IMG/VR virus record: IMGVR_UViG_3300032288_002599 | Location: 1 to 35,469 of that record | Reading direction: 5' to 3' (one strand) | Length of the DNA stretch: 35,469 bases | Origin: a virus | Shown here: positions 1,698 through 34,056 of the stretch, piece after piece | How the letters are laid out: each line of letters starts with the position of its first letter | How positions within the stretch are numbered: position 1 is the stretch's first letter | The notes under the pieces: model-generated | What the model saw: the letters and a program-made list of their open reading frames with translations, nothing else | The model's database searches: none | Told to the model about the DNA's origin: nothing | Program-made: the position numbers and the translations under genes

Positions 1698-1707
1698 TAA
1701 ATAAATC

Positions 1708-3120: not shown

Positions 3121-3132
3121 TGGAAAGAAAAA

Positions 3133-9378: not shown

Positions 9379-9379
9379 T

Positions 9380-9598: not shown

Positions 9599-9600
9599 TA

Positions 9601-15187: not shown

Positions 15188-15679
15188 ATGGCAAATACAA
15201 CATTACAGTTAAAGAAATCAGGACAATCAGGTAACGTACCATCTTCACTATCTTTCGGTGAGTTGGCGTTAAACTATGCTGATGGTAGATTATACTACAA
15301 GCACGCTAACAATTCTATTGCTAGTATTTCTACTGGTTCTCCCACACAGTCATTTGCCACAATCAATGCTAATTCATCTTTAATATTAGCAACCTCCCCC
15401 ACAGATACTTTATCAATTATTCCTGGTAATAATATTACCATAACAACGGATACATTTGGTAAATCAATTATCATCAATTCAACAGCCGCAGGCGTTGGAG
15501 ATTCGATTGACGATTATGCTAGAACCAAAGCCAACTCAGCCAATGTTCTAGCACAAGCCGCTTTTGATAGAGCCAATAGTGGAACAGGAACTTATATAAT
15601 AACTGGTGCTCAATATGTGGATCATGGTTGGATACCTCAGACACCAGGTCCAATATTATTCGATTACGGAACACTATAA
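15188..15679 (+). CDS. Short fibre-like protein with anchor module
   Basis: A 163-residue protein. It starts with the anchor module (NTTLQLKKSGQSGNVPSSL, FGELALNYADGRLYYK) seen in the genes at 12404 and 12686. A beta-rich stretch follows, then one coiled-coil unit 'ANVLAQAAFDRANSG' near residues 117-133 and a short C-terminal segment (QYVDHGWIPQTPGPI) ending FDYGTL. That ending has the same length and some likeness to the DGGxF ends of the previous genes, but lacks the two glycines and the final Phe. It may be a short fibre or an adaptor. Its stop codon lies inside the late-promoter element at 15675. Confidence 0.7.
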   Translation: MANTTLQLKKSGQSGNVPSSLSFGELALNYADGRLYYKHANNSIASISTGSPTQSFATINANSSLILATSPTDTLSIIPGNNITITTDTFGKSIIINSTAAGVGDSIDDYARTKANSANVLAQAAFDRANSGTGTYIITGAQYVDHGWIPQTPGPILFDYGTL

Positions 15680-15682
15680 ATA
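15675..15682 (+). promoter_or_regulatory. T4-type late promoter TATAAATA
   Basis: An exact TATAAATA, the consensus late promoter of T4 and close to that of T4-like cyanophages (recognised by the phage sigma gp55 with the gp45 clamp in T4). It overlaps the stop of the preceding gene and leaves 23 bases before the ATG at 15706, enough for a short leader. Probably starts transcription of the beta-helix fibre and the genes after it. Confidence 0.65.
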
Positions 15683-15705: not shown

Positions 15706-17685
15706 ATGGCAGCTAATAATTCTACTATAGTTCAGATTCGTAGAGGTACTACGGCACAAACAGCATCATTTACTGGTGCTTTGGCCGAAATTACGGTAGA
15801 TACGGATCAAAAAACAATTGTTGTTCATGATGGTGTAACACTCGGTGGTACACCACTTTCAACTAAAGCATTTACACAAGCTGCTTTTGATGCAGCCAAT
15901 TCAGCAACAGGTACAGTAGGTGCTTTAGCATATACTCATGCAAATGCAGCCTTTGATAAAGCCAATTCGGCAACCAACTTAGCACAAGCCGCTTTCAATG
16001 CAGCCAATACTGCAACTGGTACTGTAGGTGCTCTTGCATATGATAAAGCAAATGCAGCTTATGATTTTGCCAATACGATTGCTCTTGGTGCGGTTGCCAA
16101 TGTTTCATTAACACGTTCTAATACTGCCTCTGGTGCAATACCAGCAGTCAATACTTTAAAACCAGGTGAACCTTCTATCAATTTAAATGATGGAAGAATG
16201 TTTATTCAATTAAACAATGGTCAAATTATTGATATATCATCCACACCAACAGGTAATACGTGGTATGCATCAATGAATGGCAATGACAACTTTAAAGGTG
16301 ATACACCTAGTTCTGCAAAGAGAACGATTCGAGCAGCTGTAGCCGCCTCACAACCAGGTGATTCTGTTGTAGTTAGTTCAGGAACATATACAGAAATTAC
16401 ACCAATTATTATTCCACAAAATGTTCAAGTACAAGGTTCTGGTGAAAGAACTTGTGTTATTAAACCACAAACCACTTCTAATAATGTTTTCTATGTAAAC
16501 AATAATAGTTATGTTACTGGATTTAAATTTGTAGATTATACTGGCGCAGCAGTTTCTTTTCCAACACCAGCATTAGAAACAGGCACAGCACAAGCAGGTG
16601 GTGCAAACACAATTACATTAAATTCTGGTGCTTCCATTTATACCGATTACTATAAAAATATGGCTGTTTCGATTACGAGTGGTACAGGATCAGGACAATC
16701 AGCTAATATTATTTCTTATAATGGTACAACAAAAGTAGCTACTGTAGATGCCAACTGGTCAACACAACCAACCAGTTCTTCTGTATACTCATTAGAAATA
16801 CCACTTAGAAATTCTCCGGCAGCTGCCAACTCCAGATATACCACATACATTACTGGTAGTCCATACATCTATAATAGTTCTTCAATTACAACAACAGGAA
16901 CAGGCATTAGGATCGATGGAGATTTGGCGACAGGCAACAAGAGTATTATCTCTGCACAATTCACCCAAGTCAATTCTGGTGGTACAGGCATACACGTATT
17001 GAATGATGGTTACACTCAGTTGGTTTCCATTTATGGCATCTTCTGTGATACGGCATTCTTAGCTGAATCTGGTGGTACTGCTTCAATGGGTAACTGTAAC
17101 GTTAACTTTGGTAATAGAGGTTTAGTTGCCAATGGTAAAGGCAAGCTTGCCATGTCTGCAACTTTGGATGTAACAAGTGTTGAAGCCGCCTTTACGATGA
17201 ATCTAAATAGTGTTACAGCAAACAGCACTTTAGGTATTACAGCAACAATTCCATATGCAGGTTTAATTATGAAAATAGATGGTGACGATCCCGATAATTA
17301 TTATTCTGTTGTTGAAGCAACACCATTAAGTGGTGGCGTAACAACAGTATCATTTCAACAACAAATTTTGAATTCATTTAATAGTGGTACAACAGTTAGT
17401 TTTTATCAGCAAAGTCAATTGAGAGCATCAGCTCAAACGTTTGAATATGTTGGTGCTGGCACATCAATTAATGCATTGCCTAAATTAGGTGGTGTCGCTA
17501 ACGTGACTGCTCAAATTATTGGAATAGGTGAAGGCGCTGTGTTTGCTACTTCGACCGACCAAAGCGGTAACTTTGTTGTATCTGATTTAACAATTAATCA
17601 ATCAACATCCACAATTTCAGGAAGAACTTTTACAAAGAGTCTTTTTGCTGAACTGACTCCATACATACTTGCTCTAGAGGGTTAA
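15706..17685 (+). CDS. Tail fibre/tailspike-like protein with right-handed beta-helix
   Basis: A 659-residue protein. Residues 1-55 (STIVQIRRGTTAQTASFTGA, then VDTDQKTIVVHDGVTLGG) match the N-terminal domain type of the major tropism determinant, an attachment module. Residues about 57-123 are alanine-rich coiled-coil repeats (AQAAFDAANSATGTVGALAY and a near copy). From about 184, 'WYASMNGNDNFKGDTPSSA' and 'AAVAASQPGDSVVVSSGTY' open a pectate-lyase-like, DUF1565-type right-handed beta-helix running to about 470. It contains an inserted beta unit (297-365) that also occurs in the 2081-residue protein. The C-terminal part ends in a beta region. Such helices can bind or cleave surface polysaccharide, but I see no catalytic residues I can assign. 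It follows the TATAAATA promoter. Confidence 0.8.
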   Translation: MAANNSTIVQIRRGTTAQTASFTGALAEITVDTDQKTIVVHDGVTLGGTPLSTKAFTQAAFDAANSATGTVGALAYTHANAAFDKANSATNLAQAAFNAANTATGTVGALAYDKANAAYDFANTIALGAVANVSLTRSNTASGAIPAVNTLKPGEPSINLNDGRMFIQLNNGQIIDISSTPTGNTWYASMNGNDNFKGDTPSSAKRTIRAAVAASQPGDSVVVSSGTYTEITPIIIPQNVQVQGSGERTCVIKPQTTSNNVFYVNNNSYVTGFKFVDYTGAAVSFPTPALETGTAQAGGANTITLNSGASIYTDYYKNMAVSITSGTGSGQSANIISYNGTTKVATVDANWSTQPTSSSVYSLEIPLRNSPAAANSRYTTYITGSPYIYNSSSITTTGTGIRIDGDLATGNKSIISAQFTQVNSGGTGIHVLNDGYTQLVSIYGIFCDTAFLAESGGTASMGNCNVNFGNRGLVANGKGKLAMSATLDVTSVEAAFTMNLNSVTANSTLGITATIPYAGLIMKIDGDDPDNYYSVVEATPLSGGVTTVSFQQQILNSFNSGTTVSFYQQSQLRASAQTFEYVGAGTSINALPKLGGVANVTAQIIGIGEGAVFATSTDQSGNFVVSDLTINQSTSTISGRTFTKSLFAELTPYILALEG

Positions 17686-17689
17686 TAAA

Positions 17690-18031
17690 ATGGCAACACA
17701 AATTCCATTAAATACATTTAAAACAACAACGGCTAACGTTACTACATCAACAACAACGGTATACACCACACCTGCTGGTGTGACCACAGTTATTTTGTTG
17801 GCACAAGTATCAAACATTGATGCAACAAATTCAGTAACAATTTCGGCCAATCATGTTCGTGGAAGTAATGCCACATCAATTGTTAAAAATACAATTATAC
17901 CAATTACTGATGCAACAAATCTATTACTTGGTAAATTAATATTACAAACTGGTGATTCATTCAGCATTACAGCTGATGCCAACAACAGAGCACAATTACT
18001 ATTATCTTATCTCGAAACCGCTAACGCTTAA
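17690..18031 (+). CDS. Small beta-sandwich structural protein
   Basis: A 113-residue protein with a 'TTTVYTTPAGVTTVILLAQVSN' core and a following 'LLLGKLILQTGDSFSITADA' segment. The 109-residue gene at 23765 has the same plan ('TTVYTVPSLTSTVLSTVTVCN', 'NDTVSLTLGITLAATDVL'), so the two are paralogues. The fold is predicted to be a small beta sandwich, common as a free-standing gene near T4-like fibres. It is four bases after the beta-helix gene and probably co-translated. Role unknown; a capping or decorating protein is a guess. Confidence 0.65.
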   Translation: MATQIPLNTFKTTTANVTTSTTTVYTTPAGVTTVILLAQVSNIDATNSVTISANHVRGSNATSIVKNTIIPITDATNLLLGKLILQTGDSFSITADANNRAQLLLSYLETANA

Positions 18032-18037
18032 TAAACT

Positions 18038-18976
18038 ATGCCTAACAACCTTAAATTAATCAGCGGCCGTGTAGCAGTTACTCCTGCAGCAAACGTTGCA
18101 GCTGACCGATATCAATATTTGGATTTAAGTTCTGCGGAACCAAATCTTGGCACAGCCAATGTTAATGATGTATTAATTTATGATAGTGCTGCTCCTGGTG
18201 GAAGAAGATGGATACCACAAGGTGATATTCGTGGTTCTATAGGTGAATCGGCCTTTGTTCAAGCAAACACAGCTTCTGCAAATACATTATATCTTTCTGG
18301 TGTTGACTTAACACAGAATACAAATATTACTCACGCTGACACCAAAGCACAGGCAGCATTTGATAAAGCCAATACAGGACTTTCTACATCTGGTGGTTCA
18401 ATTACTGGTTCGTTAAACGTAACACAAGATTTGGCTGTCACAGGTAACTTAACTGTATTGGGCACCACAACAACAATCAATACAGCTTCATTTACAGTTA
18501 ATGATTCTTTAATAACATTAGGTGTAGGAAATTATACTTCTGATTTATTGGACATTGGCATCAGCGCACACTATAATGACGGCACCAATGCTCATACAGG
18601 TTTCATTAGAGACCATGGAACAAAAGAATGGTATGTATTTAAAGGTTATACACCTGAACTTGGTGCAAATAATAATATTAATATCAATGATGCTTCATTT
18701 GCTAAAGCAAACGTTCATGCGGATTATTTTAAAGGTAACGTAGCGTTTCCTGATGGTACAGTTCAAGCGACAGCAATTAATTTAAGAATGACCGGAAGTC
18801 CTACTGCGCCAACCAGTCCAACAGTTGGTGATTTGTGGTACGACACAGATTATGATGTATTGATGCGTTATACATATGATGGTACCTCAAATAATTGGAT
18901 CGATATCACAGGACCAACAATCGGCAGGTCAACATATATTAGACCAACATATCTAATATCAGCTAATGTGTCATAA
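18038..18976 (+). CDS. Fibre-shaft protein paired with the glycine-rich adhesin at 18986
   Basis: A 312-residue protein. The N-terminus (NNLKLISGRVAVTPAANVAA, then NDVLIYDSAAPGGRRWIPQG) is a fibre attachment type different from the FPLSPANNQ type of later shafts. Residues 83-113 are a coiled-coil unit (QNTNITHADTKAQAAFDKAN). Residues 126-208 are the shared module (GNLTVLGTTTTINTASF, HTGFIRDHGTKEWYVFKGYT). The C-terminus (254-292) is 'PTVGDLWYDTDYDVLMRYTY' followed by SNNWIDITGP, then the first strand of an Ig-like domain, cut by TAA at 18974. The rest of that domain starts the next gene in the same frame. In the paralogue at 25560 the two parts are one protein. Confidence 0.8.
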   Translation: MPNNLKLISGRVAVTPAANVAADRYQYLDLSSAEPNLGTANVNDVLIYDSAAPGGRRWIPQGDIRGSIGESAFVQANTASANTLYLSGVDLTQNTNITHADTKAQAAFDKANTGLSTSGGSITGSLNVTQDLAVTGNLTVLGTTTTINTASFTVNDSLITLGVGNYTSDLLDIGISAHYNDGTNAHTGFIRDHGTKEWYVFKGYTPELGANNNININDASFAKANVHADYFKGNVAFPDGTVQATAINLRMTGSPTAPTSPTVGDLWYDTDYDVLMRYTYDGTSNNWIDITGPTIGRSTYIRPTYLISANVS

Positions 18977-18991
18977 GGATTAAAAATGCCA
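18974..18991 (+). promoter_or_regulatory. Fused stop / Shine-Dalgarno / start, in frame
   Basis: TAAGGATTAAAAATGCCA: the stop TAA is part of the ribosome-binding site (TAAGGA) and the next ATG follows nine bases later, in the same frame. The identical 18 bases recur at 21227-21244. This favours termination followed by re-initiation; rare read-through would make a shaft-adhesin fusion. Confidence 0.6.
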
Positions 18992-20032
18992 GTTAATGAA
19001 TCAAATACAATTCAATATACGGTAGTAACCAGCAGAGTGCCTGATGGAACAACTTTGTATTGGAAAACAACCGGCAATACTACTAATTCGGATATCGTAG
19101 GTGGTAATACTGGTTCTATTACTATTAATAATAATCGTGCTGTGTTTAATGTTGCTCTTATAGCAGATGTAGACACAGATGGAACCAAAACATTGGGTAT
19201 CAATTTACTAACAGGTTCAATAAATGGAACAAGTGTAACAAGCACCCCAACACCTATTATTGTTAATGATACTTCACAGGCACCAGTACCTTATAATGTG
19301 AATTATTTATTGGTGGCTGGAGGGGGCGGCGGTGGCACTGCTGGTGGTGGCGGCGGCGGTGGATACCGCACGGGAACTTTAGCTGTTTATAGTGGAACTC
19401 CATACACTGTTACTGTTGGTGCTGGTGGAGCATTTAATGGTGATAATGGATCCAATTCTGTTTTTGGTTCTGCTACATCCATTGGTGGTGGTGCAGGCGG
19501 TGTTCCGTATGGTGGAACTGGCAGTAATGGTGGTTCAGGTGGTGGAGGATCAGGAGGTGGAAGTAATCCTGGCGGTGCCGGCGGAAACGGAACACCAGGA
19601 CAAGGTAATCCTGGCGGAGTAGGTGGATCTGGTACTTTTGGCGGTGGTGGTGGCGGTGGTGCCGGTGCTCCCGGTACTGGAGCTGCACCATCCAAAGCAG
19701 GCAATGGAGGTAATGGTTTGTATTATCCGGTTGCCGGCACATACTTTAGTGGTGGAGGTGCTGGACCGGCAGGTAGTCCTACTCAACCAGCTGGAACTCC
19801 TGGCCTCGGCGGCGGCGCACCCGCATCAGGACCATATCCAACCAATGTAGGAGCAATAAACACCGGTGGTGGCGGAACTGGTTTTGGTCCAGGTGCAGCC
19901 GGTAGCGGAATAGTTATTTTAAGTATACCAATTGCATCATATCCAGGTTCAGCACCAGGAGCAAGTAGCTCTTATCCAACGGGATCAGAACAGATTTTAA
20001 TTTATACAAGCTCGAGCACTTATACTGCTTAA
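18986..20032 (+). CDS. Glycine-rich adhesin-like fibre-tip protein, copy 1
   Basis: A 348-residue protein. Residues 1-100 form an Ig-like domain (NTIQYTVVTSRVPDGTTLYW, SGSITINNNRAVFNV-type strands) lacking its first strand, which ends the upstream gene. Residues 105-315 are a glycine-rich domain opening with 'YLLVAGGGGGGTAGGGG' and containing many GGxG runs. The end is 'IVILSIPIASYPGSAPGA' then YTSSSTYTA. Glycine-rich domains of this kind resemble the polyglycine-helix tips of T4-like gp38 adhesins, but direct homology to gp38 cannot be judged by eye. The same C-terminus recurs in the copies at 21239, 24094 and 28637. Likely a receptor-binding fibre tip; this is inferred from context and composition. 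Confidence 0.75.
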   Translation: MPVNESNTIQYTVVTSRVPDGTTLYWKTTGNTTNSDIVGGNTGSITINNNRAVFNVALIADVDTDGTKTLGINLLTGSINGTSVTSTPTPIIVNDTSQAPVPYNVNYLLVAGGGGGGTAGGGGGGGYRTGTLAVYSGTPYTVTVGAGGAFNGDNGSNSVFGSATSIGGGAGGVPYGGTGSNGGSGGGGSGGGSNPGGAGGNGTPGQGNPGGVGGSGTFGGGGGGGAGAPGTGAAPSKAGNGGNGLYYPVAGTYFSGGGAGPAGSPTQPAGTPGLGGGAPASGPYPTNVGAINTGGGGTGFGPGAAGSGIVILSIPIASYPGSAPGASSSYPTGSEQILIYTSSSTYTA

Positions 20033-20059
20033 TTTTTTTAACAAAAGGAGAAGTAAAAA

Positions 20060-20422
20060 ATGGCGCATTTTGCAAAAGTAGAAAATGGAATAGTAACGCA
20101 AGTTATTGTTATTGAGCAGGATGTTTTGAACACAGGACATTGGGGTGATCCAGCTTCTTGGGTGCAAACATCTTATAATACACATGGCGGTGTTCATGCT
20201 AATGGTGGAACTCCATTACGTAAAAACTTTGCTGGTATTGGTTACACATACGATGCTGGTCGTGATGCTTTTATTCCACCAAAACCATATGCTTCATGGG
20301 TATTAAATGAGAGCTCTTGCTTATGGGAAGCTCCAACACCAATGCCTGTAGAAGAAGGTAAAATATTTGTTTGGGATGAAGATACAACTTCATGGATAGA
20401 ATTCGTTCCACCAACAGAATAA
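20060..20422 (+). CDS. Conserved T4-like phage protein (MAHFAKV family), unknown role
   Basis: A 120-residue protein starting MAHFAKVENGIVTQVIVI, with 'WVQTSYNTHGGVHANGG', 'RKNFAGIGYTYDAGRDAF', 'PPKPYASWVLNE' and 'FVWDEDTTSWIEF'. Small proteins with exactly these landmarks are frequent in marine T4-like phages, alone or fused to others, usually without an assigned function; they are often close to fibre genes. The Trp-rich repeats 'W-x-L-x-E-x-x-x-x-W' and 'W-D-E-x-x-x-x-W' look like small beta-hairpin units. AGGAG at 20046-20050 is a strong Shine-Dalgarno sequence. It interrupts the shaft/adhesin order between the first two pairs, suggesting a role in fibre assembly or in the virion. Confidence 0.75.
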   Translation: MAHFAKVENGIVTQVIVIEQDVLNTGHWGDPASWVQTSYNTHGGVHANGGTPLRKNFAGIGYTYDAGRDAFIPPKPYASWVLNESSCLWEAPTPMPVEEGKIFVWDEDTTSWIEFVPPTE

Positions 20423-20449
20423 ACAATATAATACACTTAGGAATATTTC

Positions 20450-21229
20450 ATGTCATTTCCATTAGCACCAGCAAATAATCAAATAGCATTAGTAAATGGT
20501 ATTGAATACTATTGGCTCGCCAGTAAAGGTGCATGGTATCGATATGGTGATTCAACAGCTAATGTAATTACAGCAAATACATTTCAAGCTCTAAGTTCTA
20601 TTATATTTCCTGATGGCACATCTCAAACAACTGCTGCAACAGGTATTGATTCGTATGCTAGAACTACTGCAAATACCAACAGCAATAACATTACTATTAT
20701 TCAAGGTGTAGATACTACTCAAAACACAAATATAACCACGGCAACTAATGCAGCACAAGCTGCTTTTGCTCAAGCAAATGCGACTGCTGGTGGATTGATA
20801 TCAGCGAACAGTAGATTGACTATTGCTGAAGGTGTAGATGTGGATCAAAACACTCGCATGAGTATTATTGAAGGTGTAGATACTACACAAAACACCAGAA
20901 TAACTATTGTTGAAGGTGTCGATACTGCTCAGAATAGCCGTATGACAATTATTGAAGGTGTAGATACTTGGCAGAACACACAGATTACTGCCGCAAGTGC
21001 ATTAGCACAAGGAGCATTTGCAAGAGCAAACTCTGGTGCCAGAGCAACATCAAGTAATACAACACCTACAGGTAATACTGTTGGTGATTTATGGTTAAGT
21101 TTAACAGATGAAACATTGTATATGTATTCATACGATGGTACATCCAATAATTGGATCGATATTTCTGGACCAATATTAATATCAACTAATATTGTTGTGC
21201 AATACACCATCACAGCTAACGTAGTATAA
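20450..21229 (+). CDS. Fibre-shaft protein with tandem 14-residue coiled-coil repeats
   Basis: A 259-residue protein. Residues 1-32 (SFPLAPANNQIALVNGIEYY then GAWYRYG) are an N-terminal anchor shared with the shafts at 22432 and 26960. A short beta segment (SSIIFPDGTSQTTAA) follows. Residues about 83-180 are coiled coil, including four perfect-length 14-residue repeats (IIEGVDTTQNTRIT type). The C-terminus is 'TVGDLWLSLTDETLYMYSY' and SNNWIDISGP, then one Ig strand ended by TAA. The remaining Ig domain begins the next gene in the same frame, as at 18976. Probably a trimeric shaft whose tip is the neighbouring glycine-rich protein (inferred). Confidence 0.8.
   Translation: MSFPLAPANNQIALVNGIEYYWLASKGAWYRYGDSTANVITANTFQALSSIIFPDGTSQTTAATGIDSYARTTANTNSNNITIIQGVDTTQNTNITTATNAAQAAFAQANATAGGLISANSRLTIAEGVDVDQNTRMSIIEGVDTTQNTRITIVEGVDTAQNSRMTIIEGVDTWQNTQITAASALAQGAFARANSGARATSSNTTPTGNTVGDLWLSLTDETLYMYSYDGTSNNWIDISGPILISTNIVVQYTITANVV
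20822..20989 (+). repeat. Four tandem 42-bp coding repeats
   Basis: Units start at 20822, 20864, 20906 and 20948, with no insertions or deletions. Each encodes 14 residues on the plan I-x-E-G-V-D-x-x-Q-N-x-x-x-x, two heptads of a coiled coil. A fifth related unit (IIQGVDTTQNTNIT) starts at 20696. Units differ at several codons. Copy number could change by recombination and alter fibre length. Confidence 0.85.
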
Positions 21230-21244
21230 GGATTAAAAATGCCA
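21227..21244 (+). promoter_or_regulatory. Fused stop / Shine-Dalgarno / start, in frame
   Basis: The same 18 bases as at 18974-18991 (TAAGGATTAAAAATGCCA), again with the downstream gene in the upstream frame. The stop is part of the TAAGGA ribosome-binding site. Confidence 0.6.
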
Positions 21245-22402
21245 TTAAATGAATCAGTTTCAAACACTACAGTACAATATACAGTAACTACAACTAATAC
21301 GGCTGATGGCACCGTATTATATTGGAAAACTACAGGTACTACTGCAAACTCTGATATTGTAGGTGGTAATACTGGTACAATTACTATCACAAATAATAGA
21401 GCTTTAATTAATGTTACCGTTAGAGCAGATTCGAACACAGATGGAACTAAAACTTTAGGAATTTCACTATCAACAGGATCATTAACTGGACCAGTTGCAG
21501 CAAATACAGCAAGTTTTATTGAAGTTTTAGACACTTCACAACCACCAGAACCATACTCAATAGATTATTTGGTTGTAGCAGGCGGAGGAGGCGGAGGTGA
21601 CTCCGGATACGGTGGTGGCGGAGGTGGTGGTGCTGGAGGAATGAAAATTGGAACTATTACAGTTTTACCTAATTTCTCATACATTCTCAATGTTGGTGCT
21701 GGAGGTGTAGGAGGTATTGGTACTGGAAGTGTAGGAACTAGTGGATTTAGTAGTAATATTTCTAGTCCAGCTCCCGGATTTACAGCAGTTACTACAACCG
21801 GTGGTGGATCCGGTGGAGCGGCTATCGCACCATTCAATTTTCAACAAGCTACAGGTGTGCCCGGTGGATCTGGTGGTGGTGGTTCGAATACATTTAATCC
21901 TTGGACCGGGGCTCCAGGTGGTAGTGGAATTCCCGGTCAAGGTAATCCAGGAGGTAGTGGAACGGCAGTGCCGGTGGGGCCAGCAATTTACACGGGAGCA
22001 GGTGGTGGCGGCGGTGCTGGAACGGCTGGTACTAATGCAGTTGCTCCTCAACCTACAGGTCCTGGAGCTACTGGAGGAAACGGTTTAACTTGGACATATA
22101 CTGGACCAGAAACATATTATGCCGGTGGTGGCGCTGGTAGTGGCGGTGGTAATGGAGGAAATGGTGGTGGCGGTAATTGTCCAGTACCAACCGGTCAAGC
22201 ATCGCCAGGAACTTCTGGATCTGGTGGAGGTGGAGCCGGAGGTTTTCCGGGTGGTGGTGCAGGTGGTTCAGGTGTAGTTATATTAGCAATACCTACACCA
22301 AAATATCCTGGTTCAGCTCCAGGTGCTACAGTATCAACACCACCTGCGGCACCAGGAAGAACAGTATTAACATATACAAGCTCAGGCACTTATACTGCTT
22401 AA
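21239..22402 (+). CDS. Glycine-rich adhesin-like fibre-tip protein, copy 2
   Basis: A 387-residue paralogue of the gene at 18986. Residues 1-105 are the same Ig-like domain missing its first strand (TVQYTVTTTNTADGTVLYW; GNTGTITITNNRALINVTV). Residues about 110-340 are glycine-rich, opening 'YLVVAGGGGGGDSGYGGGG'. The C-terminus is 'VVILAIPTPKYPGSAPGA' then TVLTYTSSGTYTA, nearly identical to copies 24094 and 28637. The glycine-rich core differs from other copies in loop content and length while both ends are conserved, the pattern expected if the core is the variable receptor-contact part. Function as an adhesin is inferred, not shown. Confidence 0.75.
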   Translation: MPLNESVSNTTVQYTVTTTNTADGTVLYWKTTGTTANSDIVGGNTGTITITNNRALINVTVRADSNTDGTKTLGISLSTGSLTGPVAANTASFIEVLDTSQPPEPYSIDYLVVAGGGGGGDSGYGGGGGGGAGGMKIGTITVLPNFSYILNVGAGGVGGIGTGSVGTSGFSSNISSPAPGFTAVTTTGGGSGGAAIAPFNFQQATGVPGGSGGGGSNTFNPWTGAPGGSGIPGQGNPGGSGTAVPVGPAIYTGAGGGGGAGTAGTNAVAPQPTGPGATGGNGLTWTYTGPETYYAGGGAGSGGGNGGNGGGGNCPVPTGQASPGTSGSGGGGAGGFPGGGAGGSGVVILAIPTPKYPGSAPGATVSTPPAAPGRTVLTYTSSGTYTA

Positions 22403-22408
22403 TAAATA
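22401..22408 (+). promoter_or_regulatory. Candidate late promoter AATAAATA
   Basis: Matches the NATAAATA form of T4-like late promoters; it leaves 23 bases before the ATG at 22432, the same gap as the exact promoter at 15675. It overlaps the stop of the upstream gene. The shorter consensus also occurs inside genes here (for example near 4075), so this is a moderate call. Confidence 0.4.
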
Positions 22409-22431
22409 TAGAATAAATTTAGGAATATTAC

Positions 22432-23754
22432 ATGCCATTCCCATTATCACCAGCAAATAATCAAACTGCTCTAGTTAACGGCATTGTTTATCAATGGAAT
22501 AATGCACTCGGAGTTTGGAAAAGAAACGGCTCAATTAACTCTGCATCAATTGGCCAATTACTTTTAACTTCTGCACAACAATCCACAACAAACGGATCAG
22601 GAACTTTAATTGTTTCTGGTGGTGCTGGTATTACTGGTAATGTTTACGCTGGTGGACTTTATATTACCGGTTCTGCCAACGGTATTACATTTGCGGATGG
22701 TTCAGTACAAACATCTGCTGGTGCTTCAGCAGCCACAGGTGATGCAGCATTTGCTCAAGCTAACGCATCTAATCAATTAGCAAACACGGCATATGCTCAA
22801 GCAAATTCAGCCTTTGCTCAGGCAAATGCAGCCAATCAATATGCCAACTCAGCGTTTGCACAAGCTAATGCGGCTAATCAATATGCTAATTCAGCATTTG
22901 CAAAAGCAAATACAGTAGCCAATGATTTAGCAAATTTTAGTTCTTTGTTTGCTGGTATTGAAGCAACACAAAATACCAGAATTAGTAATGCTGAAGCACA
23001 AACACAAGCCGCATTTGATAAAGCCAACTCAGCAAACGTTTTAGCACAAGCTGCATTCAACACAGCGAACACCAAATTTAATACTTCTGGTGGTACAATA
23101 ACAGGAGATACAGTAGTAACAGGAAACTTAACGGTTACTGGTACACAATTTTATGCTAACACAGTTAATTTAACTGTTGTTGATAATATCATTACTTTAA
23201 ATTCCAATGTAACAGGTGCACCTTCATTGAGTGCTGGTATTGAAGTTAATAGAGGATCGTCCACAAATACTAAGTTGCTTTGGTCTGAGGCCAATACATC
23301 ATGGGAATTTACCAACAACGGAACAACATACGACAAGATTGCTGGACTAACATATGTTCAAGCGGCATTTGATAAAGCAAATACTGCTGAAGGTTCTATT
23401 GGTGTTGCTGCGTTTGATAAAGCCAATTCAGCAAACGTATTAGCACAGGCAGCATTTGATAAAGCAAATACATCATCAGCAGTATTAACTTCTACTGTTG
23501 ATACTTACACAGGTGATGGTTCAAATACAGCATATACATTATCAACAACACCAGCAACAATTAATTATACAACTGCTGTAGTTGGCGGTGTTACACAACC
23601 ACGTTCAGCTTACTCAGTTATTGGTACAACACTTACATTTACTTCTGCACCAGCCAATAATCAAATTATAGAAGTAACCACAATTGGTACATCCAATACC
23701 ACACTATATACAGTTAACAATATTATTAGTCCATTCTTATTGATGGGCGCTTAA
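22432..23754 (+). CDS. Fibre-shaft protein, FPLSPANNQ anchor type
   Basis: A 440-residue protein. The anchor (PFPLSPANNQTALVNGIVYQ, GVWKRNG) fills residues 1-32. A beta segment (GGLYITGSANGITFADGSV) and a long alanine/asparagine coiled coil with 14-residue repeats (AFAQANAANQYANS; about 105-165) follow. A shared module occupies about 231-300 (GNLTVTGTQFYANT, SNTKLLW-like NTKLLWSEANTSWEFTNNG), resembling the segment in the S74 fibre at 9601. More AQAAFDKAN units follow, then a C-terminal beta domain (VDTYTGDGSNTAYTLSTTP to EVTTIG), present three times in the shaft at 26960. Downstream is a small beta protein and then a glycine-rich adhesin. Virion shaft role is well supported by composition and context. 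Confidence 0.8.
   Translation: MPFPLSPANNQTALVNGIVYQWNNALGVWKRNGSINSASIGQLLLTSAQQSTTNGSGTLIVSGGAGITGNVYAGGLYITGSANGITFADGSVQTSAGASAATGDAAFAQANASNQLANTAYAQANSAFAQANAANQYANSAFAQANAANQYANSAFAKANTVANDLANFSSLFAGIEATQNTRISNAEAQTQAAFDKANSANVLAQAAFNTANTKFNTSGGTITGDTVVTGNLTVTGTQFYANTVNLTVVDNIITLNSNVTGAPSLSAGIEVNRGSSTNTKLLWSEANTSWEFTNNGTTYDKIAGLTYVQAAFDKANTAEGSIGVAAFDKANSANVLAQAAFDKANTSSAVLTSTVDTYTGDGSNTAYTLSTTPATINYTTAVVGGVTQPRSAYSVIGTTLTFTSAPANNQIIEVTTIGTSNTTLYTVNNIISPFLLMGA
22747..22893 (+). repeat. 42-bp coding repeats with a 21-bp half unit
   Basis: Full units at 22747-22788, 22810-22851 and 22852-22893 encode AFAQANAxNQxANx-type 14-residue repeats; between the first two lies a 21-bp half unit (22789-22809, AYAQANS). 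A single-heptad unit supports the view that length changes in heptad steps, keeping the coiled coil in register. Confidence 0.75.
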
Positions 23755-23764
23755 AGGAAATAAA

Positions 23765-24094
23765 ATGCCAATAACATATAAAGTTTTAGGACAAATTAAC
23801 CCAACTGCACACACAGCAACGACTGTATATACTGTGCCTTCTTTGACTAGCACCGTGTTGAGTACTGTTACTGTATGTAATCAAAGTGCCAATACAGCCA
23901 CTTTTAGGTTGGCTGTTCGTCCATCAGGTGAAACACTTGCAGCTAAACATTATATTAATTTTGATACTCCTGTTCCAGGTAATGATACTGTTTCGTTAAC
24001 ACTTGGTATTACATTGGCCGCAACAGATGTTCTTACTGCCAATGCAAACACTTCTTCTGTAAGCATCAATGCGTTTGGTAGTGAGATTAGTTAA
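23765..24094 (+). CDS. Small beta-sandwich structural protein, paralogue of 17690
   Basis: A 109-residue protein with 'TATTVYTVPSLTSTVLSTVT' then VCNQSANTATFRLAVRPSG and 'NDTVSLTLGITLAATDVL'. It shares its plan with the 113-residue protein at 17690, and proteins of this type are frequent beside fibres in T4-like phages. It starts 10 bases after the shaft gene, with AAAGGA upstream. Its TAA stop overlaps the start of the following adhesin gene by one base (TAATG), so the two are probably translationally coupled. Role unknown; its tight coupling suggests it acts with, or is made in fixed ratio to, that adhesin. Confidence 0.7.
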   Translation: MPITYKVLGQINPTAHTATTVYTVPSLTSTVLSTVTVCNQSANTATFRLAVRPSGETLAAKHYINFDTPVPGNDTVSLTLGITLAATDVLTANANTSSVSINAFGSEIS

Positions 24095-25527
24095 TGGCAA
24101 TCACAACAGCAAGCCAATCTCAGATAGGACAAGAAACAGCCAAAAATAGTCAGATTGTTACAACATCTGTAAGGCTGATTAATTCTGGTGCATCTACAGG
24201 TCCTGCTATTACATCCGTTATCGTAACAGATAGTGAATACAATAATTTAGATGATACAGCTGCTGCAACAAGTAATTCATATATTCGAATCCTTGGCACA
24301 GGTTTTCAATCAACGGCCAATGTGTTTCTCAATGGTACTATGGTACCAAAAGCCAATGTTACATTTGTAAGTTCTACTGAATTGCGTGCTGTATTGCCTG
24401 TTTCAAATACAGGAAATTATGCGGTATCAGTTTACAATTCAAACTCATCTGGTTCATTGTATTCTAGTTCATTTGTTATTTCAACCATGCCACAATGGTT
24501 AACATCAGCGACCTTGGCGAATGTAAGTATCGGTTTAGCTTTCTCAACCACATTATCAGCCACATCCGATTCAAATGTAACATATACAAACACTTCGATA
24601 TTACCTGCTGGTACGACATTATTATCCAATGGATATTTTTATGGCACCATATCAGGTAATACAACAACATATTCGTTTGATGTTAAAGCAACAGATGCTG
24701 AAAATCAGGATACAATAAGAACGTTTAGTTTAACTACAGTACTGCCATCATTTACGGCAGAATATCTAGTTATAGCTGGTGGCGGTGGTGGCGGTTCTAA
24801 TCAAGTAGGTGGTGGTGGCGGAGCTGGCGGATTATTATCAGGAAGTACATCATTAACAAGTGGTACTTCATATCCCATTACTGTTGGTGGTGGCGGAGCA
24901 GTAAATACCAATGGAAATCAAAGTAGTTTTGCTGGAATTAATTCTACGGGGGGCGGAGGAGGCAGTTCAAGTAATGGCGGAGCAGGACAACCAGGTGGAT
25001 CTGGCGGCGGCGGCTCGGGCGGAACAGTTGGACCGTCGGGGAACCCAACTGGAGGTCCGGGAGGTTCTTCTACTCCAGGACAAGGAAACGGCGGTGGCGG
25101 CGGCGGAAACGCATCGGTGCCATTGGGAAATTGGGGTGGTGGTGGTGGTGGTGGTGGCCGAGGTGGCAGCGGTACACCTGGAGGTAATGCGACCCCTAGT
25201 TCAGCAACAGGTGGGCCAGGCGGTGCTGGTTCCACTTGGCCATTTACAGGATCAACCTACGCCGGCGGCGGCGGTGGAACAGGCACAGGCCCACAACAAG
25301 GATCTGGCGGTTCTGGCGGAGGAGGACCAGCATTTAATCCAGGAAGTAACAATACTGGTGGTGGCGGTGGCGGTCAGTCCGGAGCTGGCGGATCTGGTGT
25401 GGTCATATTGGCTGTCCCTACTCCTAACTATCCAGGTTCAGCTCCAGGTGCGACAGTAACAACGCCACCAGCAGCACCAGGAAAAACAGTATTAACATTT
25501 ACAAGTTCTGGTACATACACAGCTTAA
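24094..25527 (+). CDS. Glycine-rich adhesin-like protein with IPT/TIG-like domain, copy 3
   Basis: A 477-residue protein of a second adhesin type. Residues about 30-125 look like an IPT/TIG Ig domain (SYIRILGTGFQSTANVFLNG, then TELRAVLPVSNTGNYAV). Residues 130-225 look like a 'putative Ig' domain of the cadherin-like class (AFSTTLSATSDSNVTYTN; YGTISGNTTTYSFDVKATD). Residues about 226-430 are glycine-rich from 'YLVIAGGGGGGSNQVGGGG'. The end is 'VVILAVPTPNYPGSAPGA' and TVLTFTSSGTYTA, as in copies 2 and 5. The stem therefore differs from copies 1, 2 and 4 while the tip is shared: a clear domain swap. The start overlaps the previous stop (TAATG). Confidence 0.75.
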   Translation: MAITTASQSQIGQETAKNSQIVTTSVRLINSGASTGPAITSVIVTDSEYNNLDDTAAATSNSYIRILGTGFQSTANVFLNGTMVPKANVTFVSSTELRAVLPVSNTGNYAVSVYNSNSSGSLYSSSFVISTMPQWLTSATLANVSIGLAFSTTLSATSDSNVTYTNTSILPAGTTLLSNGYFYGTISGNTTTYSFDVKATDAENQDTIRTFSLTTVLPSFTAEYLVIAGGGGGGSNQVGGGGGAGGLLSGSTSLTSGTSYPITVGGGGAVNTNGNQSSFAGINSTGGGGGSSSNGGAGQPGGSGGGGSGGTVGPSGNPTGGPGGSSTPGQGNGGGGGGNASVPLGNWGGGGGGGGRGGSGTPGGNATPSSATGGPGGAGSTWPFTGSTYAGGGGGTGTGPQQGSGGSGGGGPAFNPGSNNTGGGGGGQSGAGGSGVVILAVPTPNYPGSAPGATVTTPPAAPGKTVLTFTSSGTYTA

Positions 25528-25533
25528 TAAATA
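25526..25533 (+). promoter_or_regulatory. Candidate late promoter AATAAATA
   Basis: NATAAATA match at the stop of the preceding gene, 26 bases before the ATG at 25560; similar placement to those at 15675 and 22401. Moderate support only, because the element is AT-rich. Confidence 0.35.
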
Positions 25534-25559
25534 ATAGAATAAGAATAAAAGGTTTTTAA

Positions 25560-26939
25560 ATGCCAATATTAAAGATACAACCAAACGCAATCAGTAACAC
25601 AGAAAGCTTTGTGTTTGGTAATGTTACTGCTACTTCAATTACTGCTAATGGTGTAAACCTTGGCACTGCTGTCGCTGAAGCTTTTGTGTTGGCCAACAAT
25701 GCAGGAAAATCAACCACATCAGATACGGCACCATTAAATCCAAAAGTTGGTGATACTTGGTTTGATACAGTAACAAACGTTTTACTTCGTTACACCAATG
25801 ATGGTGTAAGCAATAACTGGATCGATATCTCTGGCCCACAAAATGCTGGATACATCTATCAAACATATGCGATTACACCAAATACCTCAACAATTAATGA
25901 AACTACCGGTAACACAGTAATCTATAACATCACAACAACCAATGTTGCTGATAATACAGTATTGTATTGGACAAATTCTGGTACAACCGTAGCATCCGAT
26001 TTTAATGATTCTGTAAGTAATGGTTCTGTTACTATTATTAATAATTCTGCAACAATTAGAAGGTCTTTAATTGCTGATTTAACAACAGAAACAACAGAAA
26101 CAATCACATTAAGTTTAAGAACTGGTTCAAATACAGGACCAGTTGTTGCAGTAGCTACAACTGTTACAGTTGGAGATACATCAATTACTCCTGCTTTCTA
26201 TTCAGTAGAATACCTTGTGGTTGGTGGTGGAGGAGCTTCTGGTCAATATGGTGGTGGAGGCGGCGCTGGTGGTTATTTGACAGGCACTATGAATTTAACC
26301 ACATTAAATCTTTATCCAATTACTATTGGTGCTGGCGGCACTTCAGCTGTAGCATATTCAGGAGGTAATACAGTATTTCAAGGTGCCAATACAATTACCG
26401 CCTTTGGTGGCGGAGCAGGAAGCAGTTCTAATGGTGGTGCATATGACGGAGGATCAGGTGGTGGTGGATATAGTCGTGGTGGAACTGGCGTTGTTGGCCA
26501 AGGAAATAATGGTTCTTCCGGCACATATTCTCAAGGTTTCGTTGCCGGTGGAGCTGGTGGAGCTGGAGCTGCAGGAGGATATCCTCCGGGTGGAAATGCA
26601 GGATTTCCAGGTGTTGCAGGTATTGGATTACAATGGTTGAACGGAACTTATTATGCTGGAGGTGGAGGTACACAAGGTGCATATGGTTATCAAACAGGTC
26701 AAGGTGGATTAGGTGGTGGAGGCACAGGCTCAAATGGAGCACCTAACACTGGTGGTGGAGGAGGATCTGGAAATAATAGTGTCAATTATTCTGGCGGTAG
26801 TGGTATTGTAATCATTCGTTATTTAACCGGAGCAACAGATAGTGGTGGAAATCCAATTAATCCATCTGGTGGAACATCATCAACATCAGGTTCATATACT
26901 TATCACACATTTACGACTTCATCAACACTCACAGCTTAA
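25560..26939 (+). CDS. Fused shaft-linker and glycine-rich adhesin, copy 4
   Basis: A 459-residue protein that joins in one chain what the pairs at 18038/18986 and 20450/21239 split in two. Residues 1-35 (PILKIQPNAISNTESFVFGN) are a distinct start. Residues about 56-95 are the linker 'PKVGDTWFDTVTNVLLRYTN' with SNNWIDISGP. Residues about 100-212 are a complete Ig-like domain (TYAITPNTSTINE, then YNITTTNVADNTVLYWTNSG). The glycine-rich domain (about 215-415) opens 'YLVVGGGGASGQYGGGGGAGG'-like. The C-terminus differs from the other copies (IVIIRYLTGATDSGGNP, TTSSTLTA). There is no coiled-coil shaft, so it may bind a shaft made by another gene. Adhesin role inferred. Confidence 0.75.
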   Translation: MPILKIQPNAISNTESFVFGNVTATSITANGVNLGTAVAEAFVLANNAGKSTTSDTAPLNPKVGDTWFDTVTNVLLRYTNDGVSNNWIDISGPQNAGYIYQTYAITPNTSTINETTGNTVIYNITTTNVADNTVLYWTNSGTTVASDFNDSVSNGSVTIINNSATIRRSLIADLTTETTETITLSLRTGSNTGPVVAVATTVTVGDTSITPAFYSVEYLVVGGGGASGQYGGGGGAGGYLTGTMNLTTLNLYPITIGAGGTSAVAYSGGNTVFQGANTITAFGGGAGSSSNGGAYDGGSGGGGYSRGGTGVVGQGNNGSSGTYSQGFVAGGAGGAGAAGGYPPGGNAGFPGVAGIGLQWLNGTYYAGGGGTQGAYGYQTGQGGLGGGGTGSNGAPNTGGGGGSGNNSVNYSGGSGIVIIRYLTGATDSGGNPINPSGGTSSTSGSYTYHTFTTSSTLTA

Positions 26940-26959
26940 ATTAAATAGGTAAAACATAA

Positions 26960-28627
26960 ATGTCTTTTCCATTATCACCAGCAAATAATCAAGTTACGCT
27001 TGAGAATGGTATATCATATACCTATAATGCATCAAGAGGTGCATGGTTTAGGACACCTGCAACCGCACTTGCATCACTCACAAGTAACACATTTACTGTT
27101 CTAAATTCTATTATATTTGCTGATGGTACTTCACAAACATCAGCAGCAAGTCCAACCGATTCATATGCCAGAACAACTGCTAATACAGCAACTAATAATA
27201 TTACAATTATTCAAGGTGTAAACACAACACAGAATACTCGTATGAGTATTATTGAAGGTGTAAATACTACACAAAATACTAACATAACAAATGCTGATAC
27301 CAAAGCACAAGCTGCTTTTGATAAAGCAAACACATCAATCACCACATCTGGTGGTTCAATTATTGGATCACTCAATGTATCACAAAATCTAACAGTATCA
27401 GGCAATTTATCTGTTTTAGGAACAACCACATCAATCAATACACAACAGTATGAAGTAGTTGATCCAATGATTAAATTGGCTATAGGAAATTATACAACAG
27501 ATCAAATAGACATTGGTTTTGCTGGTCATTATAACGATGGCGCCAATGCTCATACCGGTTTAGTTCGTGATTTTGCAACAAAAGATTATTTTTTATTTCA
27601 AGGTTATACACCAGAATTATCAGGCAATAATAACATTGATATTAATCATGCTTCTTTTGCAACTGCAAATTTAAGAGCCTCATTACTTAGAGGTAATGTA
27701 ATTGCTACAACAGTCAATATTGATGGCAAAGACCAAACATCTGTTGATGCAACACAGAATACCAGAATAACTATTGCTGAAGGTGTTGATGTTGGTCAAA
27801 ACACTAGAATGTCCATCATTGAAGGCGTTGATGCAACACAGAACACTAACATTACCGCAGCAGATGCCAAAGCACAAGCAGCCTTTAATAAAGCAAATGA
27901 TGCTTTTACATTAGCTAATACTGCAAATGCTGCAGCAAGTTCAGGTGGCGGAACTATTTCTGGTACATTCACCACGTACATTGATAAATTTACAGGTAAC
28001 GGAAGTCAAACACAATTTACATTATCCACAACACCTGATAGTGAAAACCAAACAATGGTGTTTTTAAATGGTGTATACCAAAATAAAGATACGTATAGTG
28101 TTTCTGGTGCCAATGTTGTTTTTACGGATACAGCAACTGCAAATGATACAATAGAAGTTACTACGTTTGTAAAAGTAATAAATGTTGATAGTTCAATGTA
28201 TAGAACAAGAATATATCAAGGTGACGGATCAACCACAACCTTCACGATATCTTCTGGTTACACTGCAAATACAATTTTATTATTTAATAACGGTGTTGCA
28301 CAATTCCCTGTTGATGATTACACAGTAAGTGGTACAACATTAACATATGTATTACCACCAGGATCGGATGAAACAATCCAAATTCGTGAGTTGCCAATAA
28401 ACACTTTGGTGCCAGCAACTCAAGCTTTGATGCGTAGATATACAGCAAACGGTGTTCAAACACAATTTACTGTAACTTCTGGTCAAACAGCAAACTCTAT
28501 GTTTGTATATGAAAATGGTATCTGCCAAGTACCTATTAATGATTACACAGTAAGTGGTACAATATTAACATTTACAACTGCACCGATAGCCAACGTGGTT
28601 GTTCAAATTAGAGAATTATCGATTTAA
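26960..28627 (+). CDS. Fibre-shaft protein with triplicated C-terminal beta domain
   Basis: A 555-residue protein. Anchor SFPLSPANNQVTLENGISY and GAWFRTP at residues 1-32. Coiled-coil repeats (IIEGVNTTQNTNIT types) at about 70-125 and 255-320. The shared module at about 132-215 (GNLSVLGTTTSINTQQY, GLVRDFATKDYFLFQGYT). Then three tandem copies of a beta domain at about 336-400, 413-477 and 490-553, each opening with a 'T-G-N-G-x-x-T-x-F-T' strand and containing 'x-x-N-G-V-x-Q' and 'Y-x-V-S-G-x-x-L-T-F' (for example GNGSQTQFTLS, GDGSTTTFTIS, ANGVQTQFTVT). One copy of this domain ends the shaft at 22432. The next gene, an adhesin, starts nine bases after the stop. Confidence 0.8.
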   Translation: MSFPLSPANNQVTLENGISYTYNASRGAWFRTPATALASLTSNTFTVLNSIIFADGTSQTSAASPTDSYARTTANTATNNITIIQGVNTTQNTRMSIIEGVNTTQNTNITNADTKAQAAFDKANTSITTSGGSIIGSLNVSQNLTVSGNLSVLGTTTSINTQQYEVVDPMIKLAIGNYTTDQIDIGFAGHYNDGANAHTGLVRDFATKDYFLFQGYTPELSGNNNIDINHASFATANLRASLLRGNVIATTVNIDGKDQTSVDATQNTRITIAEGVDVGQNTRMSIIEGVDATQNTNITAADAKAQAAFNKANDAFTLANTANAAASSGGGTISGTFTTYIDKFTGNGSQTQFTLSTTPDSENQTMVFLNGVYQNKDTYSVSGANVVFTDTATANDTIEVTTFVKVINVDSSMYRTRIYQGDGSTTTFTISSGYTANTILLFNNGVAQFPVDDYTVSGTTLTYVLPPGSDETIQIRELPINTLVPATQALMRRYTANGVQTQFTVTSGQTANSMFVYENGICQVPINDYTVSGTILTFTTAPIANVVVQIRELSI

Positions 28628-28636
28628 GGATAAAAA

Positions 28637-30205
28637 ATGCCGTTTACACAGATAACAACATCCAATCTAGACAATACAATCAGTACAAAATTAGCAGCTG
28701 CTGAAGCAGCCAATGCTGCCGTTGCAAACATTGTTTCGTTAGCAATTAGTAGTGTACAGATTGCAGATGGTTCATACAATGTTTTGGATGATACAGCAGC
28801 CAATACTGGTGGCGGTTATTTGGTTATTAACGGAACAGGTTTTACAAATCAGTGCGTTGTAATTGTTGGTACAACGAATGCTACTAGTACCACATTTGCA
28901 AACACAAAGCAACTAAGAGCTCAAGTTCCAGCTTTATCAGCAGCAACTTATCCTGTTTATGTTACAGATACCGTAACTGGTGCAACAGCAACAAAAATTA
29001 ATGGATTAACTTTTAGTTCTTTTCCTGTGTGGGGAACTGCAACTGCATTAGCTAATGTTCTTAGTAATACTGTATTTTCAACCACATTAAGTGCAAACTC
29101 TGATTCTTCTGTAACTTATTCTAATACCACAATATTGCCTACAGGCACAACTTTATTATCCAATGGATATTTTTATGGTAACATTTCTGTTGGTTCAGCA
29201 ACAACTTATTCATTTGATGTTAAAGCTTCAGATGCTGAATTACAGGATCAAACTAAAACATTTAGTTTATCGGCTATAACGGCGGCTCCTTATTCAATTA
29301 ATTATTTAATGGTAGCTGGAGGTGGTGGCGGAGGCGGCACACAAGGTCCTGGATCAGGCGGTGGTGGCGGCGGTGCCGGAGGATTATTATCTGGATCCAC
29401 CACATTCCTTGCTGGAACACCCTATACTATTACTGTCGGTGCCGGCGGTAATGGTGGCGCAAGTACACCTGGCACATCAGGCACTTCGAGTTTTATAAGT
29501 GACGGAGTTACAGCAATAGCTGTTGCAGTAGGCGGTGGATATGGAGCTACACAAACACCAGGTGCTGGTCCTGGTGCTTTAGGTTATGGCGCTAATGGTG
29601 GTTCAGGTGGTGGTGGAGCGGGCACTCCTGGTAATGGATATAGTCCTAATGCAGGAGGTGTAGGCGGTTATGCAACAGGATCTCCTGGAGTTCATGGTAT
29701 AGCTGGCCCACAAGGATATCCAGGAAGTTCAGCTGTACCAGGTCCAGGCACTAACCCTGTGGCTGGTGGTGGTGCTGGTGGTGGTGCTGGTGGTGCAGCA
29801 ACGAATGCAGTAGGAATTGATTTTAATACAACTCCAGCTGGATCAGGTCCTGGTGGCACCGGCGGCGTAGGAGCCATATGGCCATTTACTGGACCTTCAG
29901 TATACTATGCAGGTGGTGGTGGCGGTGGAAAATTTTATTTTGGTGGCGGCAACGGCTCCGGAGGAAATGGAGGTGGTGCACCTGGCGGTAATGCAATTGC
30001 CGGAACAACAAATCGTGGTGGTGGCGGTGGAGGTGGTGGATACCCAAATAGTGGAGGAGCAGGTGGATCCGGTGTAGTTATAATAGCTATACCCACACCA
30101 AGTTATCCAGGTTCAGCGCCACCGGCGGCCTCAGTAACAACACCGCCAGCAGCACCAGGAAAAACAGTATTAACATATACCAGTTCTGGTACATTTATAG
30201 CTTAA
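28637..30205 (+). CDS. Glycine-rich adhesin-like protein with IPT/TIG-like domain, copy 5
   Basis: A 522-residue paralogue of the gene at 24094. The N-terminal ~30 residues (PFTQITTSNLDNTISTKLAA) may be the docking end. IPT/TIG-like domain about 32-125 (GGYLVINGTGFTNQCVVIVG), cadherin-like Ig about 130-218 (VFSTTLSANSDSSVTYSNTT), glycine-rich domain about 220-475 opening 'YLMVAGGGGGGGTQGPGSGG', and the conserved end 'VVIIAIPTPSYPGSAPPA' then TVLTYTSSGTFIA. It follows the triplicated-domain shaft by nine bases after TAAGGA; the frame is the same but a second in-frame TAA lies in the gap. Its glycine-rich core is the longest of the five. Receptor binding is inferred. Confidence 0.75.
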   Translation: MPFTQITTSNLDNTISTKLAAAEAANAAVANIVSLAISSVQIADGSYNVLDDTAANTGGGYLVINGTGFTNQCVVIVGTTNATSTTFANTKQLRAQVPALSAATYPVYVTDTVTGATATKINGLTFSSFPVWGTATALANVLSNTVFSTTLSANSDSSVTYSNTTILPTGTTLLSNGYFYGNISVGSATTYSFDVKASDAELQDQTKTFSLSAITAAPYSINYLMVAGGGGGGGTQGPGSGGGGGGAGGLLSGSTTFLAGTPYTITVGAGGNGGASTPGTSGTSSFISDGVTAIAVAVGGGYGATQTPGAGPGALGYGANGGSGGGGAGTPGNGYSPNAGGVGGYATGSPGVHGIAGPQGYPGSSAVPGPGTNPVAGGGAGGGAGGAATNAVGIDFNTTPAGSGPGGTGGVGAIWPFTGPSVYYAGGGGGGKFYFGGGNGSGGNGGGAPGGNAIAGTTNRGGGGGGGGYPNSGGAGGSGVVIIAIPTPSYPGSAPPAASVTTPPAAPGKTVLTYTSSGTFIA

Positions 30206-31202: not shown

Positions 31203-31218
31203 AAAATAGGATAAAAAA

Positions 31219-32103: not shown

Positions 32104-32112
32104 GGATTCAAT

Positions 32113-34048: not shown

Positions 34049-34056
34049 TATAAATA
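34049..34056 (+). promoter_or_regulatory. T4-type late promoter TATAAATA upstream of gene 13
   Basis: An exact TATAAATA, 20 bases before the gene 13 ATG, with a good Shine-Dalgarno sequence (AGGAG, 34066-34070) between. This is the expected layout of a T4-like late promoter with a short leader, and would start the neck and downstream head/tail operon. Confidence 0.75.

Follow-up and report, generated by a model that had tools for sequence, protein, structure and literature searches.

Phages that display several adhesins and exchange the tips of their fibres are known. Branched phages with multiple receptor-binding proteins undergo modular domain swapping (PMC10253068), and coliphage W70 carries three tandem RCC1 paralogues that were all detected in virions by mass spectrometry (PMC11370258). 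Glycine-rich parts at fibre ends bind receptors in gp38 (PMC12892980) and in Pam3 gp24 (PMC9608196). Here we analyze a linear 35,469-base fragment of an uncultured T4-like myovirus (the window; IMG/VR record IMGVR_UViG_3300032288_002599), in which positions 18038-30205 hold four fibre-shaft genes and five glycine-rich tip genes on two stem types. We read this array as a set of co-transcribed distal fibre units with plug-in tips on conserved stems, probably displayed together and changed by recombination, and assign this reading a probability of roughly 0.68. Two of its aspects look new, namely the array-wide turnover of tip folds on fixed stems and a stem domain split between two genes: the open-licence literature yielded nothing on array-wide fold exchange over fixed stems, and nothing on a fibre stem encoded partly by a shaft gene and partly by an adhesin gene.

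The T2, S16 and PP01 systems (PMC12892980) resemble the window in pairing a shaft gene (gp37) with a separate tip adhesin (gp38) that bears glycine-rich motifs and a variable receptor-binding part, and the T2/S16 gp38-like order, with a separate adhesin gene directly after the fibre-shaft gene, recurs in copies 1, 2 and 5 of the array. Those phages, however, carry one adhesin each, no RCC1 or LamG exchange is described there, and S16 gp38 joins gp37 by short helices via a hydrophobic platform, whereas the window adhesins use a Calx-beta or TIG stem. Because a Calx-beta or TIG-Ig stem forms their N-terminal part, in place of the helical attachment domain of the gp38 type, we do not file them as gp38. 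Myocyanophage Pam3 gp24 (PDB 7YFW, 7YPX) also has a C-terminal glycine-rich receptor-binding domain, but it is a single trimeric fibre protein with a TFA-like chaperone and no array. The Vequintavirinae phage W70 shares the tandem paralogous tips (RCC1), but with one fold only and with shared stems not shown. CBA120, phiK64-1 and RaK2 are comparable in their modular swapping and in having several receptor-binding proteins per virion (presumed for the window), but these are largely enzymatic tailspikes in branching complexes and separate proteins. In freshwater cyanophage S-SRM01 an RCC1 gene lies directly after a gp37-like distal fibre gene, with more nearby; unlike the window, its record has no TIG or Calx-beta stem match and is annotated only as RCC1. 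Among isolates, protein searches gave one weak match for the stems, to a fibre of a Pelagibacter podophage; the Calx-beta stem had no match there, nor did the glycine-rich copy 4.

A preliminary description of the region had proposed four shafts and five adhesins, and all nine open reading frames (ORFs) are confirmed, in one shared orientation on the + strand. The first unit comprises shaft 1 (18038..18976; tail-fibre families phrog_1699 and phrog_8745) and adhesin 1, with its stem at 18986..19285 and its glycine-rich tip at 19286..20032 (PF21722, E 2.3e-13), and is followed by a small conserved inter-unit gene (20060..20422; phrog_7759, E 5e-35, function unassigned). Shaft 2 (20450..21229) adjoins adhesin 2 (stem 21239..21547; tip 21548..22402, PF21722, E 2.2e-13). 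Shaft 3 (22432..23754; weak match to tail-fibre family phrog_4242) is parted from adhesin 3 (stem 24094..24750; tip 24751..25527, PF21722) by a small gene (23765..24094) homologous to 17690-18031; both small genes match phrog_1276, and the first of them precedes shaft 1. Adhesin 4 comprises a shaft end and complete Calx-beta stem (25560..26192) and a tip (26193..26939, PF21722, E 2.6e-21) in one gene, and shaft 4 (26960..28627; phrog_18673 tail fibre, E 7e-10; DUF4183) adjoins adhesin 5 (stem 28637..29287; tip 29288..30205, PF21722, E 6e-10). The anticipated order of shaft then adhesin is therefore found with adjoining genes in copies 1, 2 and 5, but not in copy 3, with its intervening gene, nor in copy 4, which has no shaft gene of its own. 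The conserved C-terminal tail is common to copies 1, 2, 3 and 5 but absent from copy 4. The two stem types were correctly recognized, Calx-beta in copies 1, 2 and 4 and TIG plus Ig in copies 3 and 5, but they do not strictly alternate: the real order is Calx-beta, Calx-beta, TIG, Calx-beta, TIG. All five adhesins pass PF21722 Gly_rich_2 with 27.2-77.1 bits (curated cut-off 24.3 bits) and match phrog_2295, a family of unassigned function (E 5e-30 to 6e-36). Shafts 18038 and 26960 match PHROG tail-fibre families, and shafts 20450 and 22432 were identified mainly via common repeats and N-termini, shafts 2, 3 and 4 having an N-terminus in common.

The AlphaFold2 (AF2) model of copy 4 is mostly confident from residue ~100 to the end (ten-residue block means mostly 80-96, a few 63-78), and in Foldseek its stem matches the CBD1 domain of NCX1/CALX (TMt up to 0.62); the sandwich fold of copies 1 and 2 is assigned by homology to copy 4. 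The Pfam Calx-beta model has no match in the window adhesins up to E 0.1, and hence the domain is best named Calx-beta-like (Calx-beta for short in this text). As to the polyglycine II sandwich of T2/S16-type gp38, the C-terminal domain of copy 4 is confidently modelled, and there is no gp38 among the 50 PDB matches listed by Foldseek. As regards the second stem type, TIG (PF01833) and Ig (PF05345) score above cut-off in homologous relatives of the copy 3 and 5 stems (e.g. L089_12919). The TIG signal within the window is weak (copy 5 TIG_SUH, E 0.015; no other window copy matches), and the second domain of these stems is a putative Ig.

The Calx-beta domain of copies 1 and 2 is divided over two genes, the shaft gene ending with its first strand. 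The C-termini of shaft 1 (..PTYLISANVS) and shaft 2 (..VQYTITANVV) correspond to strand A and the stems of adhesins 1 and 2 lack it, whereas in copy 4 strand A (residues 102-107, the TYAITP region) lies in the same chain as the rest of the domain. The N-terminus of copy 4 contains a short shaft end, and its residues 16-110 align to residues 220-312 of shaft 1 (47%, E 1e-17). The two window junctions have the form TAA-GGATTAAAA-ATG (18974..18988, with a 9-nt in-frame spacer and a Shine-Dalgarno-like AAGGA, and 21227..21241), and the same arrangement of TAA, nine in-frame nucleotides (GGAYTARRA) and ATG holds for 10/10 split junctions, with identical spacing and nearly identical sequence. Shaft ends are also coupled to stem type: those ending NV[SAV] precede split Calx-beta stems (10/10), those ending IRE[LM]xx, such as shaft 4 (..QIRELSI), precede TIG stems (8/8), and there are no crossed cases (Fisher 2.3e-5, ancestry not corrected for). 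Such a coupling is what would be preserved if every shaft physically docked with the adhesin of its own unit, and strand complementation is the proposed form of attachment between shaft and split stem. Shaft N-termini vary independently of stem type, which suggests that shafts recombine upstream of the paired end.

The same junctions might be taken to mean that the split genes yield one protein, through read-through of the TAA into a minor fusion or as a meaningless decayed fusion. All ten junctions have a spacer that keeps the frame and contains no stop, the adhesin half has no strand A, and natural fusions exist (copy 4 and L089_7008). Each junction nonetheless carries an AAGGA-type ribosome site and an ATG, spacers of 9-10 nt occur elsewhere in the genome, including TIG junctions with an in-frame stop, and decay is at odds with a junction conserved across strongly diverged stems (down to 45% identity). 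The frame may simply follow from fixed ribosome-site spacing, in which case read-through would be possible but not required. A single protein is thus improbable, and read-through as the main product is not favoured.

The evidence for exchangeable tips comes from relatives, a set of ~230 viral loci fetched from IMG/VR with the neck protein, one adhesin and two stems as queries. Three tip folds that are unrelated to one another occur on homologous stems in these loci: glycine-rich, RCC1 beta-propeller and laminin-G lectin, with RCC1, LamG_3 and Gly_rich_2 tips confirmed on such stems by Pfam in representative relatives. In L089 and L090 most pre-array genes have 78-92% amino acid identity to those of the window and shafts and stems are kept, and every tip found, seven of them in L089 and two in L090 before its contig breaks off, is an RCC1 beta-propeller. 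L016 and L011, with neck proteins 93 and 99% identical to that of the window, bear RCC1 tips on TIG stems. In L009, whose neck protein is 100% identical, the position of the adhesin 5 tip is taken by a LamG-like tip, with which the last tip gene ends and after which the same downstream gene follows at once. The preliminary description had missed both this change of tip fold between close relatives and the splitting of the Calx-beta stem across two genes.

The borders of the exchanged piece can be located at the nucleotide level. Homology to RCC1-tipped relatives stops at 19275-19286, 21493-21550, 26183 and 29268-29273, within ~55 nt of the stem ends at 19285, 21547, 26192 and 29287; for copy 1 against L089/L090 it ends at 19275-19276, and for copy 4 against L089 at 26183. 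It resumes at 20043 (L089), 22401 and 26944 (L089), adjoining the tip stop codons, and the replaced piece is hence the tip. At least 10 changes of tip class are needed to explain the TIG stem tree, and at least 5 for the Calx-beta one. The copy 5 stem groups with those of the RCC1-bearing L172_1033 and L097_16476 (support 100/99), the copy 3 stem with that of the glycine-rich L097_13490 (78% identical, support 100/100), and the copy 4 stem pairs with that of the RCC1-tipped L089_7008 (74% identical, modest support of 86/74). L097 has a fusion of the copy 4 N-terminus with a shaft-4-type C-terminus, and in L095 and L089 the shaft 1 N-terminus is joined to a shaft-2-type C-terminus; these fusions look like unit loss by recombination, although a change in the opposite direction is conceivable. 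The comparison of relatives that had been called for accordingly bears out copy gain or loss as well as the replacement of tips on the same stems. The sequences themselves show the array and the modular make-up of stem and tip, the replacement of tips, changes in copy number, the splitting of the Calx-beta domain and the coupling of shaft and stem.

Other relatives show further variation around the array. L014 and L017, with neck proteins 98 and 91% identical, carry in positions 1-9960 a wholly different adsorption gene set. In the RCC1-tipped L011 (2171-8099) and L016 (3833-9641), the interval from tips to neck holds sulfotransferase/glycosyltransferase-, methyltransferase- and UDP-galactopyranose mutase-like genes (read by eye); S-SRM01 has a comparable set near its RCC1 genes, and the window has no such genes. 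The more distant L033, L039 and L057 have, ahead of the neck gene, a tandem run of six to seven glycine-rich genes with other N-termini, some of them collagen-like, and no separate shaft genes seen; arrays of such tips thus recur.

Tips within a genome tend to be of one class. Across 20 contig clusters that each hold at least two tips, 71/82 within-genome pairs share their tip class, as opposed to 32 on average and at most 55 in 10,000 stem-stratified shuffles; this uniformity holds with each cluster weighted once, and for the window clade alone 20/10,000 shuffles reach it. Each of the five window tips has its closest match in another tip of the window (54-62%), and these matches cross unrelated stem types: the copy 3 tip is nearest to that of adhesin 2, and its L097 stem orthologue bears a different glycine-rich tip. 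This pattern suggests that tips were copied between units of the window phage. In L091 the last ~42 residues of three tips (ends at 11126-11254, 15941-16066 and 19365-19490) are 65-90% identical to the copy 2 tail, as opposed to 49% identity to the window for its phrog_358 core protein, and the tails being closer than this core may be taken as a sign of horizontal tip exchange.

Several points weigh against our overall reading. The shuffles include no model of shared ancestry, and the near-duplicate pairs L161/L167 and L179/L199 slightly inflate the count of uniform pairs. Mixed tips occur in six clusters (the L097 cluster, L095, L180/L205, L201, L230 and L237), and a strictly uniform tip class per genome is accordingly rejected. 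RCC1 tips are closest within their own genome in only 8/29 cases (2.6 expected), which rejects recent copying as the sole cause of uniformity for these tips and means that selection, block import or an assembly constraint must contribute. The AF2 model of a read-through shaft 2/adhesin 2 junction is of low confidence (predicted local distance difference test, pLDDT, of 47) and uninformative, the profile match of Pam3 PDB entries to the window tips (E 0.003) is weak, with a composition bias of 56 bits, and co-display in this clade is an inference.

We suggest that a T4-like myovirus encodes several distal tail-fibre units in this region, in each of which a repeat-rich shaft would dock, by its C-terminus, a conserved Calx-beta or TIG-Ig stem, which in turn would present a C-terminal receptor-binding tip. 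Stem and shaft end would form a matched socket and plug, and in two units the plug would be literal, the Calx-beta domain being made up of strand A from the shaft and its remainder from the adhesin. The tip would constitute a cassette flanked by the stem before it and by the beginning of the following gene after it, and homologous recombination at its flanks would swap in a tip of the same or of an unrelated fold, copy tips between units, and delete or fuse units. Transcribed together late, the five units would probably be displayed together and confer several receptor specificities on each virion. A broader proposition, which we put forward tentatively and at somewhat under even odds, is that of a universal socket, in which fixed stems take whole folds, a new fold spreads across the array and the plug is a Calx-beta domain completed by the shaft strand; if true, a virion would show several specificities of one fold class, and the class would be changeable array-wide. 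The reading of the locus as tandem fibre units would, if true, shed light on the way in which multi-receptor fibres are built by uncultured T4-like aquatic phages, and on how a receptor-binding fold can be replaced wholesale without redesign of the fibre. Stem and paired shaft end would provide a natural, sequence-defined attachment point for tip modules. The different tip folds on the same stems in close relatives suggest a plug-in system for changing or broadening the range of cells to which a phage sticks, and host-range turnover in environmental myoviruses would become testable by relating tip class to host.

The expression signals fit joint late transcription of all units. A T4-type late promoter-like TATAAATA (15675..15682, + strand) is an exact match 31 nt before gene 15706, and a second TATAAATA (34049..34056, + strand) lies 28 nt before neck gene 34077; the motif occurs within 60 nt upstream of the neck genes of 16/53 relatives, with ~0.0055 expected per 60 nt. 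No clear internal terminator was found on the coding strand of the array, the few terminator-like sites there falling in coding sequence, and internal sigma-70 promoter-like sites are not clearly above shuffles, with terminator-like sites only slightly above. Several phages and prophages switch their tails by inversion or by diversity-generating retroelements (DGR), and many paralogous tips with conserved flanks could recombine, so that one tip might be in use at a time and the others kept as a silent or switchable store. Against this stand the intact units on a single strand, the tip genes being intact open frames, most with a Shine-Dalgarno-like site before the start, and the late promoter motif ahead of the whole region; in addition, 12 records, several of which are fragments, yielded no reverse transcriptase, invertase, integrase or serine/tyrosine recombinase. 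We consider such a store unlikely. The earlier idea of several exchangeable tips in tandem is upheld by other folds on the same stems, breaks at the borders and copies gained or lost, and that of a store of swappable tips fits exchange between genomes over evolution, but finds no support as a switch inside one phage. Co-display is favoured by the single orientation, the late promoter at 15675, the lack of a clear terminator and the virion proteomics of W70 (PMC11370258).

It could also be argued that the three kinds of tip domain (glycine-rich, RCC1 and LamG) serve the fibre as structural or decorative elements, given the weak sequence match to a solved phage tip. These domains, however, are C-terminal and the most exchanged part of the units, LamG and the propeller are common binding folds, and the glycine-rich domains of Pam3 gp24 and S16/PP01 gp38 are distal, with PP01 gp38 binding OmpC. 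Such a role is thus very unlikely, and receptor binding by the tips the sounder inference. An artefact of metagenome assembly joining units of different phages, conceivable because paralogous repeats are hard to assemble and the window is a linear fragment, is extremely improbable, since similar arrays, with five to seven tips, are flanked by the same genes in independent contigs from other samples.

The gene content of the window identifies it as T4-like: a baseplate wedge gene (start 1708, phrog_438), a gene for a 2,081-aa protein (start 3133, phrog_358), a fibre gene similar to long-tail-fibre distal subunits (start 9601) and the gene for neck protein Ad2 (start 34077). By neck protein, the nearest isolates are Caulobacter phage Cr30 (49%) and Stenotrophomonas phage DLP_6 (47%), followed by phages of Sinorhizobium and Methylophilales (44%); a near-identity search of annotated phages with the window gave no match. 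For the gene at 9287-9598, the start at 9287 in the ORF list overlaps the preceding gene, and the likely start is 9380 (phrog_473 match). Downstream of the array, genes 30873, 31219 and 32113 (30873-33717) have no PHROG match and recur in L009 with 50-91% identity; gene 32113 and its neighbour 33745 recur in L015 as well (50-91% identity). Given this recurrence, the genes at 30873-33717 may form a further variable host-contact module.

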